64,000 nt of DNA, taken from NCBI RefSeq assembly GCF_947498175.1, contig NZ_CANMJB010000002.1, positions 310,001-374,000 on the forward strand, written 5' to 3'. The notes below the pieces were generated by a model. The model did no database searches. It was not told the DNA's origin and saw only the letters and a program-made list of their open reading frames with translations. Positions within the stretch are counted from its first letter, which is position 1. The number at the start of each line of letters is the position of its first letter. The position numbers and the translations under genes are program-made. This DNA is from an uncultured Algimonas sp. (GTDB lineage Bacteria > Pseudomonadota > Alphaproteobacteria > Caulobacterales > Maricaulaceae). Positions 10,601-47,700 of the stretch are shown piece by piece.

Positions 10601-10623
10601 AGCTCCACCTTAATCAGGTCTTG

Positions 10624-10651
10624 ATCCCGACTTTCGTCGGGGTGAGCGGAG
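10624..10651 (+). repeat. Palindromic repeat (REP-like) left of the GIY-YIG gene, copy 1
   Basis: CCCGAC-TTTC-GTCGGG at 10626–10641 is followed by GTGAGCGG. The same unit occurs with nearly the same sequence at 11087 and inverted inside valS at 46102. Confidence 0.75.
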
Positions 10652-10678
10652 TAGGGATGGGATATCGTTCTAAATCTT

Positions 10679-10708
10679 CCGCTCATTCTGGCGGACGCCG
10701 GAATCCAG
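10679..10708 (-). repeat. Palindromic repeat left of the GIY-YIG gene, inverted variant
   Basis: CCGCTCAT starts the element, followed by the imperfect hairpin TTCTGGCG-GA-CGCCGGAA and ATCCAG. Read on the minus strand it has the layout of the 10624 and 11087 copies (CTGGAT, stem, ATGAGCGG) with a different stem sequence. Confidence 0.6.
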
Positions 10709-10721
10709 GATTACCCTCTTC

Positions 10722-11084
10722 ATGCTGACCTCCGGCTTCTGCACCTACATCGCCACGAACAAGCGGAACGGCACGCTCTATACCGGTCACACCGACGATA
10801 TCGGGATGCGGGGTCTCCAGCATTTGCACGGCACGTTCGACGGGTTTTCCAAGCGATATGGGTGCAGGCATATCGTCTGGTTTGAGGAGCATGTGTCGCG
10901 GGACGAGGCGTTCGTGCGCGAGCGGCGGATCAAGGAATGGCGGCGGAGCTGGAAGCTGGAATTGATCGAGCGTTTCAATCCGCATTGGATCGATGTGCTG
11001 GCGTCTCCGGTTTGGCCGCTGCCGGATGCGCAGGTGTTTCCGGAGTTTTATGAGCGATGTCTAACGTTTGCGCTTCCCCGGTAG
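10722..11084 (+). CDS. GIY-YIG family nuclease, stand-alone
   Basis: The 120-residue protein is a single-domain GIY-YIG protein of the UvrC-N/YhbQ-like kind: CTYIATNKRNGTLYTGHTDD supplies the two motif strands, followed by a conserved Arg (GMRGLQHLHG), Tyr/Lys in SKRYG and the catalytic-type Glu in DEAFVRERRIKEWRR. Such proteins nick DNA or RNA structures or are domesticated. It is framed on both sides by palindromic repeats of one family, an arrangement that suggests the gene moves with, or acts on, these repeats. The G+C content is higher than the island to its left. Confidence 0.85.
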   Translation: MLTSGFCTYIATNKRNGTLYTGHTDDIGMRGLQHLHGTFDGFSKRYGCRHIVWFEEHVSRDEAFVRERRIKEWRRSWKLELIERFNPHWIDVLASPVWPLPDAQVFPEFYERCLTFALPR

Positions 11085-11086
11085 CT

Positions 11087-11114
11087 GGATCCCGACTTTC
11101 GTCGGGATGAGCGG
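11087..11114 (+). repeat. Palindromic repeat right of the GIY-YIG gene, copy 2
   Basis: The core ATCCCGAC-TTTC-GTCGGGAT (11089–11108) is a perfect hairpin with ATGAGCGG overlapping its end. All 28 bases from 11087 to 11114 equal the reverse complement of 46102–46129 inside valS. Confidence 0.85.
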
Positions 11115-44798: not shown

Positions 44799-47700
44799 AT
44801 GTCCGACCCGACACCCGAACACCCAGACGCTCCGCCGCCCGGACCGCTCCCCCCCGGAACGCTCCCCCCCGGCACGTTGCCCAAGCATTTCGACCCGACC
44901 GAAGCGGAAGGTCGCCTCTACGCGGCGTGGGAGGCGGCGGACTGTTTCCGGCCGGACATGGACGAGGCCAAGCCGCCTTTCTCCATCGTCATCCCGCCGC
45001 CCAACGTCACGGGCAGCCTGCATATGGGTCACGCGGTCAACAACACGATCCAGGACATCCTGGCGCGCTTCCACCGCATGCGCGGCTACGACGTGCTGTG
45101 GCAGCCCGGCACCGACCATGCCGGGATCGCAACCCAGATGGTGGTGGAGCGAAAGCTGGCCGAGGAACAGCGCCCGCGCTCTTCCATGAGCCGTGAGGAT
45201 TTCCTGGACGAGGTCTGGGCCTGGAAGCGCGAGAGCGGCGGCATCATCACCGAACAGCTCCGCCGTCTGGGCGCGAGCTGCGACTGGAGCCGGGAGAAAT
45301 TCACGCTGGGCGATCCGGACGACCCAAGCGACAAGATGGCCGAGGCCGTCACCAAGGCGTTCGTGGAGATGTACGAAGCCGGTCTGATCTACCGCGACAA
45401 GCGGCTGGTGAACTGGGACCCGCATTTCCAAACCGCGATCTCTGACCTCGAAGTCGAGAACCGCGACATGGACGGCCATATGTGGCACTTCAAATATCCG
45501 CTGGAGGGCAGGGAGAGCTACACCTACATCGAAAAGGACGCGGACGGAAACGTCACGCTGAGCGAGGAGCGCGACTATATCTCCATCGCCACGACCCGGC
45601 CCGAAACCATGCTCGGCGACGGGGCTGTGGCAGTCCATCCGGACGATGACCGCTACGCGCCGATCGTGGGCAAAAAGGTGCGCCTGCCGCTCGCCGACCG
45701 GCTGATCCCGATCATCGCGGACGACTATCCGGACCCGGACTTCGGCTCCGGCGCGGTGAAGATCACCGGCGCGCACGACTTCAACGATCATGAGGTGGCG
45801 AAGCGGCACGACCTGCCCATGTATGCGCTGATGGGGACTAAGGGCGAGATGATCGCCAGCGACATCATGCCGGAAAAATATGTCGGGATGGACCGGTTCG
45901 AGGCGCGCAAGGCCGTCGTCGCCGACATCGACGCGGAAGGCTTGCTGATCAAGGTCGAGGACAAAAAGATCATGCAGCCCTTCGGCGACCGCTCCGGCGC
46001 AGTGATCGAGCCCATGCTGACGGACCAATGGTTCGTGGATGCGGAAAAGCTGGCGGGCGAGGCGATGGCGGCGGTGGCTCGAGGACATGCCTCTCCTCCC
46101 TCCGCTCATCCCGACGAAAGTCGGGATCCAGTCGACGGCGATGGCAAGCAGCCTAGATCCCGGATCAAGTCCGGGATGAGCGGAGGGAAGGGGGAAGGCA
46201 TCAAGCCAGCTCTGACTTCTTCCCGCTCAGGCCGACTTGATCGGCCTGCCCATCTCCCAACGACCGATGGTTCAGGTGATGGGTTCGCCCCCGAATCAAG
46301 TCCGGGGCAGGCTGTTCAAGTCGGCGAAGGCGGGAATGAGGGAAGCACCCGCTTCATCCCCGAAAACTGGAAGAAGACCTACGACCACTGGATGGAGAAC
46401 ATCCAGCCCTGGTGCATCTCCCGCCAGCTCTGGTGGGGGCATAGGATTCCGGCTTGGATTTTCGCTTCGTTGTCTGGTCCCGCAACCGAGACTGGATCAG
46501 AAGAACATAAAAGGATCATACTTGAACTAGATCAGCTTTACGATCTGCTTACAGCAACTCCATTTGTGGTTGGAGATGAAACAGAACTTGAGGTCAAGTT
46601 TCGAAAACATCTTGATGAGTTATCCATCATTTCAAAAGTTATTGATGTTAGTCTGAAGCAAGGGCCAACAGAAGTTGGTGTTTATACGTATTTAAAAGCA
46701 CAAATTCTTCTACGATCAGGAAGTCGATTTACATTTGATTACATTCGCGACCCCGACGTCCTTGACACCTGGTTCTCCTCCGGCCTCTGGCCCTTCTCGA
46801 CGCTTGGATGGCCGGACGAAACCGAATATCTCGAAAAGTTCTACCCCACCTCCGTCCTCGTCACGGCGTTCGACATCATCTTCTTCTGGGTGGCGCGGAT
46901 GATGATGCAGGGGTTGTACTTCATGGACGAGGTGCCGTTCCGCGACGTCTATATCCATGCGCTGGTGCTGGACGAGGCCGGCAAGAAGATGTCCAAATCG
47001 ATCGGCAACACGATCGATCCGCTCGACCTGATCGACGGCGTGTCGGTCGAGGAACTGGTTGAGAAACGCACGCGCGGGCTGAAGAACCCGGAGACCGCGC
47101 CGCAGGTCGCCAAGGCGACGCGCAAGGCCTATCCGGACGGGTTCGAGGCGTTCGGCGCGGATGCGCTGCGCTTCACCCTGGCGGCGATGGCGGGGCAGGG
47201 ACGCAACATCAAGCTCTCCGTGGATCGGGTGGCGGGCTACCGCAATTTCGGCACCAAGCTGTGGAACGCGGCACGTTTTGCGCAGATGAATGGCTGTCGC
47301 GGGGGTGGGGACTTCGACCCGGCGCGCGTCGAGTCCGCGCTCAATCGCTGGATTGTAGCCAAGACGGCTGAGGCGGCGGCGACGGCAACGGAATACATCA
47401 TCGCCTACCGATTTAACGATGCGGCGGACGCGGTCTACAGCTTCGTCTGGGGCACGGTTTGCGACTGGTATATCGAACTGGCCAAGCCGGACCTGAACGG
47501 CGCCGACCCGGAAGAGACGCAGGCGACGCTGGGCTGGGTGCTGGACCAGAGCTTCAAGCTGCTCCACCCCTTCATGCCGTTCATCACGGAAGAACTGTGG
47601 GCGCAGACGGGGGATCGTGACGGCTTCCTGATGCTGAGCGACTGGCCGGAGATCGAGCCTTTGGAAGTGGGCGACGACATCGACTGGCTGATCCGGCTGA

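Follow-up and report, generated by a model that had tools for sequence, protein, structure and literature searches.

In-frame palindromic elements in the valyl-tRNA synthetase gene of an uncultured Algimonas sp. and their probable link to palindrome-flanked GIY-YIG nuclease genes

Palindromes inserted in coding genes are already known. Among the closest described systems, the CGTC REPs form a mostly alphaproteobacterial superfamily, characterized by stems of 8-9 bp starting with AT, loops of 4-5 bases, mostly CCA tails, and frequent dimers in opposite orientation (Di Nocera et al. 2013, PMC3733652). The stem is preceded by an unpaired tag, CGTC, TGTC or CCTC. The same survey describes intragenic CGTC and GTAG REPs, including those in tRNA synthetases of X. 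oryzae, E. litoralis, and S. alaskensis, and assigns the R. conorii elements RPE-4 and RPE-6 to the CGTC superfamily (PMC3733652). According to this 2013 account, the CGTC repeats are without associated or dedicated transposase genes (PMC3733652). In Rickettsia, RPE-7 was reported in the phenylalanyl- and isoleucyl-tRNA synthetase genes (PMC3767692), and coding palindromes are also described from Wolbachia (PMC10969869). GTAG REPs and REPINs with RAYT, the REPtrons, are presented as a DNA-processing enzyme gene flanked by palindromes, which also occur at other places as numerous short copies (PMC3733652). The GIY-YIG fold was linked with mobile DNA through homing endonucleases and other mobile GIY-YIG proteins (Dunin-Horkawicz et al. 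2006, PMC1564403). The strings 'palindrom' and 'flank' had no occurrence in the main text of PMC1564403, and the term GIY-YIG had none in the CGTC-REP survey PMC3733652.

We analysed a 64-kb stretch (64,000 nucleotides; the window) from an uncultured Algimonas sp. (Caulobacterales), whose valS gene carries the insert studied here (Table 1). The valS product was a class I synthetase by Pfam and a valine--tRNA ligase by NCBIfam, with a score of 1180 bits for the NF004349 equivalog against a cut-off of 704. Positions 46086-46343 corresponded exactly to codons 430-515. The sequence-only reading of this DNA had proposed that the valS frame runs open through four hairpins at residues 430-515; the codon check and the hairpin positions bore this out, and neither a stop nor a shift interrupted the frame. 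It had also described the segment as extra compared with other ValRS. The alignment with Thermus ValRS (1gax) broke at about chain position 378 and resumed there, so the 86 residues, which lie between about positions 377 and 378 of that chain, are additional, and the near congeners G015 and G006 also lacked them (G000 denotes the window's genome and the other G numbers its relatives). A second valS, another point raised by that reading, was not found in full length in the own genome: the four other matches were partial, 25-32% identical, and belonged to other synthetases. Folding of the insert gave z = −7.7, and none of 200 dinucleotide-preserving shuffles was as good. We infer that the insert is disordered and surface-exposed, without an essential function of its own.

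Table 1. Features of the valS insert and of the GIY-YIG unit (window coordinates)
Feature	Position	Strand	Remarks
valS, valine--tRNA ligase, 1108 aa	44799..48125	+	sole full-length copy found; NCBIfam NF004349 equivalog
valS insert, 86 residues (430-515)	46086..46343	+	open frame, comparison with relatives, 1gax alignment, fold z = −7.7
Hairpins in valS insert	46108-46127, 46158-46176, 46228-46248, 46289-46307		two compound palindromes
Compound palindrome E1, 'alpha' element	46097..46188		hairpins 46108-46127 and 46158-46176; ends TCCCTCCGCTC...GAGCGGAGGGA
Compound palindrome E2	46220..46336		'beta'-type left arm 46228-46248; further hairpin 46289-46307 inside
GIY-YIG unit overall	10679-11114		nuclease gene between two arms of E1's palindrome type
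Extra single alpha arm	10620..10651	+	just upstream of the GIY-YIG unit
Left arm, diverged alpha type	10679..10709	+	weak R1 match at 10674-10771, E = 8e-5
GIY-YIG endonuclease gene, 120 aa	10722..11084	+	PF01541 E = 3.7e-12
Right arm of GIY-YIG unit	11085..11114	+	exact 30-base inverse match to first valS hairpin

The E1 ends showed perfect complementarity over 17 bases, and the E2 arms were 81% complementary over 32 bases. The first E1 hairpin (46108-46127) consisted of the stem ATCCCGAC and the loop GAAA, followed by GTCGGGAT. Its arm matched 11085-11114 in inverse orientation (30 exact bases, E = 1.7e-8 for the genome). An inverse match to a repeat at 11087 had been noticed earlier and holds; the length given for it, 28 bases, was too short, and that the repeat is one arm of a pair around a GIY-YIG gene had been missed.

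E1 agreed with the CGTC REPs in its stem (8-9 bp, AT at the start) and its loop (4-5 bases), and in the alignment of six copies the first stem was followed by GGATCCAG, with the CCA tail, and by a mirrored second unit. In the tag position, however, the alpha family, E1 included, has GCTC instead of CGTC, TGTC or CCTC; E1 is therefore regarded as a close variant and not as a strict CGTC-REP member. The CGTC tag was present in the repeat at the valS site of G011 (ACATCGTCATCC...). The parallel that had been drawn with Rickettsia elements is sound, as RPE-4 and RPE-6 are placed in the CGTC-REP superfamily in PMC3733652 and the valS repeats are close to this superfamily; the link runs via the published classification. 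Like RPE-4, RPE-6, RPE-7, and others, the palindromes lie in frame in coding genes. Unlike the Rickettsia elements, they occur in another lineage (Caulobacterales) and in a genome of 2.85 Mb, and different repeat families occupy one site in congeners. The valS insert is a further example of palindromes inserted in coding genes.

With the insert and short flanks as query, the own genome yielded 63 matches at E up to 1, a count that includes the insert. The E1 hairpin was present at 15 places with at most 2 mismatches and the second hairpin gave 57 matches with at most 3, and both reversed control patterns gave 0. The alpha element, defined from six copies, had a length of 80-85 bases and contained CCGCTC, the hairpin, CCAG, a spacer, and the mirror image. 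Model R1 was built from these six copies, one of them the valS copy E1 (C2:356097-356188); the copy at C2:225697 (L076) was excluded from the alignment because its right half differs. When the own genome was searched with R1, the six building copies came first and weaker matches followed. Five of the six were in frame in core genes, namely valS, leuS, glyS (two copies), and pdhC, which showed the expected Pfam domains, and the sixth (C1:329303) was in no recognised long frame, as judged without a Pfam scan. A weaker copy was in frame in a squalene/phytoene-synthase gene. A palindromic element in frame in a coding gene, the hallmark of the RPEs, was thus found in valS, leuS, glyS (twice), pdhC, and squalene/phytoene synthase. 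Six of the 12 places with an R1 E of about 2e-6 or better were in recognised genes; the copy at C13:35122, in an open frame ahead of a pseudouridine-synthase domain, is putative coding only. The GlyS protein query also matched the insert of LeuRS at 70% over 30 residues, and one peptide type is thus common to two unrelated essential enzymes, GlyRS and LeuRS. tRNA synthetases made up three of the five genes carrying alpha elements, a proportion to which no probability is attached because the analysis began from one of them. Across 60 genomes, the R1 search at E up to 1e-4 gave no match in 21.

The dispersed repeats of the own genome, together with the kept frame, the essential gene found once, and the congeners without insert, agree with the earlier suggestion of a palindromic element tolerated in a coding gene. 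A sequencing or assembly artefact has a negligible probability: the valS frame is intact, the element family recurs in frame in four other genes of this genome, inserts are present at homologous positions in further genomes, and nothing was found in its favour. A strong reading-frame preference was considered and rejected. The SAHPDESRDP... frame was used in 14 of 15 coding first arms (by eye), a bias largely explained by stops. In the six genic G000 copies, one alternative frame was closed by stops in five and the third frame in two; much of the bias is therefore a stop-codon effect, and no selection is claimed.

The valS gene was found in 100 genomes, and the site in the window was compared with that in 40 of the 99 relatives; most of these 40 belong to the same genus and family. 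Among these 41 genomes, 10 had a long insert (G000, G001, G002, G010, G011, G018, G022, G048, G053, and G056), 4 had a short loop (G027, G035, G047, and G057), 24 had neither, and 3 were incomplete. Alpha-type palindromes occupied the site in G048 and G056. A different repeat family (CGTCATCCTCGGG...) was present in G011, G018, and G001, and the inserts of G010 and G002 were different again. With the G011 insert as query, matches numbered 11 in G002, 13 in G018 (valS included), 5 in G010, 3 in G011 (valS included), and 1 in G001, in its own valS insert. Near relatives with neither insert nor loop were G015 and G006 beside G000, G008 beside G011, and G014 beside G010. On the C-terminal valS tree of 36 taxa, a minimum of 8 changes was obtained for the 8 long inserts on it. 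Of 80 listed named alphaproteobacterial valS loci, 40 were parsed by regex (the other 40 were unread), and 39 of the 40 had no insert; the Hellea sp. MAG-149 locus showed a short loop.

These site data bear on the explanation that one ancestral ValRS insert was inherited by vertical descent, with the site hit once and the insert later overwritten via gene conversion or repeatedly lost. Nine of the 10 long inserts still open with 'GH...' (eight with RGH), and the four relatives with a short loop, like Hellea MAG-149, have an RGH/GH...KG loop and nothing more, which fits a single origin; a small ancestral loop is likely on these grounds. For Rickettsia japonica, orthologues of an insert-bearing gene were also reported to contain inserted sequence, and insertion hotspots were left open there (PMC3767692). 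The near relatives without any loop (G015 and G006; G008; G014) and the differing repeat families speak against a single ancestral insert, which we consider possible but rather doubtful. The N- and C-terminal ValRS trees conflicted for several of G001, G002, G008, G011, G022, and G056. Parts of valS have likely been exchanged between lineages, as judged from these trees, so gains at the site are not fully separable from losses.

A second, non-palindromic segment was observed in valS at 46458-46748 (residues 554-650, 97 aa), with 38% GC against 64.6% GC for the window. It was unalignable with most congeners, and the G000 version resembled those of G018, G008, and G057 by eye. A segment of at least 45 aa was present at this place in 28 genomes, and in 26 of them its GC was below that of the upstream valS DNA (mean 43% vs 54%).

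The leuS and glyS genes were compared in 21 genomes each (own genome plus 20 of 59 relatives). The editing-domain site of leuS held the full element in three genomes (G000, G011, and G013) and short stretches of a similar kind in two (G004 and G028). The glyS insert site was common to G000 and G011, and other repeat-like inserts were present there in G032, G024, and G029. That ValRS, LeuRS, and GlyRS each have a loop with recurrent inserts would suit recruitment of the insert for a ValRS function, such as tRNA or partner binding, under selection to stay. Such recruitment is improbable, since sequence and length of the insert vary among relatives and 24 of the 41 genomes have neither insert nor loop at the valS site. 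The LeuRS (L079, residues about 240-312) and the GlyRS beta subunit (L080, about 570-640) each contained a hypervariable stretch, of a kind similar to the second valS segment, that differed between the relatives compared. In G027 glyS (L319), an in-frame TAG, either a draft error or a real stop, was observed at the G000/G011 insert site.

The repeat at 11085-11114 that matched the first valS hairpin belongs to a unit lying between open frames, in which a GIY-YIG gene is enclosed by palindromic arms. The stop codon of this gene touches the right arm. The Rfam search of the 64-kb window gave three tRNAs and nothing else, and thus no intron at the unit. Because the left arm is diverged, the arm score of the window unit was 25, which keeps it out of the armed genes counted below. 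The own genome had seven GIY-YIG matches, four of which were examined: arms were found at the window unit and at L363, where they were of the 'gamma' type, and none at L354 and L364. In G004, a GIY-YIG gene with perfect alpha arms was observed (L336). A RAYT transposase (Y1_Tnp) was rejected as the mover, as PF01797 had no match in the own genome and was positive in 5 of 14 control genomes, Caulobacter included.

The window unit resembles the REPtrons in having palindromes that flank the gene of a DNA-processing enzyme and short copies elsewhere, but the enzyme is a GIY-YIG nuclease and not a Y1 HUH transposase. It differs from the surveyed CGTC REPs by GIY-YIG genes between the arms, and from the described GIY-YIG homing endonucleases by the location of the nuclease between REP-like palindromes. 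Among the best-ranking matches in open-licence PubMed Central, no published link of GIY-YIG with REP-type palindromes was found, and the nuclease-palindrome association may be new.

The PF01541 search gave matches, housekeeping ones included, in all 100 genomes. From these, a survey sample of 112 distinct GIY-YIG genes was taken among the matches listed, mostly in listing order. Inverted palindromic arms with a score of at least 30 were found around 66 of the 112 genes, compared with 0.9% of 1120 displaced controls, which had the same window geometry and were shifted within the same loci; the remaining 46 scored below 30. Four loci (L259, the window, L363, and L365) had been picked in the knowledge that repeats were close by, and subtracting them gave 63 of 108. 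For the 66 armed genes, arm similarity followed nuclease similarity (Mantel r = 0.33, a value reached in 0 of 2000 permutations), with r = 0.26 for pairs less than 60% identical; common descent of the genomes may add to this co-variation. A second GIY-YIG subfamily (such as WVYILRCADGSYYVGSHRGDD; L399, L353, L405, L415, and similar) had a different flanking repeat, CCTCATCCTGAGG..., and 'CADG'-type GIY-YIG genes showed arms in 11 of 23 cases.

Sixteen further GIY-YIG loci were obtained from a plasmid collection by protein similarity (6 from 33 records and 10 from 34, overlapping). Eleven of these named loci scored at least 30, the Planktothrix locus among them only barely above its shuffles (36 vs 34), and five scored below. 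The arms of the Azospirillum, Shinella, and Neorhizobium units contained the CGTC tag and fit CGTC REPs. The Neisseria arm agrees with type CGTC-1, equated with dRS3 in the 2013 survey (PMC3733652), and the Sphingobium and Novosphingobium arms were similar. Flank scoring detected no arms at the loci of Rhizobium K1/93, R. tumorigenes, Photobacterium, and Sphingomonas paeninsulae. The Sinorhizobium C101 locus, whose frame runs beyond the usual stop, had no arms by the script, yet they were visible in the alignment. Two Sinorhizobium units (L444/L463) were 88.7% identical over 622 bp, and the homology ended at the outer palindromes. A block with defined ends, as in a transposon with terminal inverted repeats, is supported by this one pair. 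In Azospirillum lipoferum 4B, the interval from sufB to sufC contained the GIY-YIG gene with a REP dimer on each side; the unit was missing from this place in five other Azospirillum records, a difference that may reflect gain or loss. GIY-YIG genes between two neighbouring co-directional genes were seen at L462 (rnc-era) and L445 (sufB-sufC).

The armed loci could also be read in the opposite sense, with GIY-YIG genes as passengers for which REP dimers or their vicinity are preferred landing sites, and with the REPs moved by something else. Some insertion sequences are reported to target REPs (PMC1525189; PMC3733652), and a passenger inserting in this way would give identical-looking arm pairs. 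The co-variation of arms and nuclease, the likeness of the two Sinorhizobium units up to and including the arms, and the absence of the Azospirillum unit together with its arms from the same intergenic place in the five other records argue against passengers, an explanation we hold to be the less probable one, with perhaps a minor chance of being correct.

Palindromes of this kind are dispersed in the genome and lie in frame in several genes, the valS site carries different families across relatives, and GIY-YIG genes are often bracketed by such palindromes, both in the window's order and in other groups. Taken as a whole, these data are best explained by palindromic elements inserted in frame with a GIY-YIG-linked origin, which we consider probable for the valS insert. 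On this view, the ValRS loop would have received, in frame, two palindromic mobile elements that are non-autonomous, RPE-like and close to CGTC-type REP dimers, and these would have persisted since the gene was still open and additional residues are tolerated in the loop. More generally, a copy landing in a gene would survive only if, by its length and frame, it leaves the gene open and if the loop is tolerant of it. The GIY-YIG nuclease may start the spread by cutting the arms, or the cruciform that they form, and the protein may act in cis on its own unit and in trans on the short copies. If it acts in both ways, the coding elements would be miniature derivatives of GIY-YIG units. For mobilisation by GIY-YIG as such, we judge the chances to be slightly better than even. 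We lean to a similarly small degree towards the wider proposal that GIY-YIG proteins are dedicated mobilisers of CGTC-type repeats in Alphaproteobacteria and Neisseria, with one clade per repeat family, and that coding palindromes, by extension the RPEs, are miniature copies.

A nuclease gene between arms of the same type provides a concrete, testable enzyme and possibly the long-missing engine of the spread of these repeats. The recurrent loop inserts of ValRS, LeuRS, and GlyRS form a natural insertion series in essential enzymes, suited to asking where in a protein, and in what frame, new segments can be accommodated.
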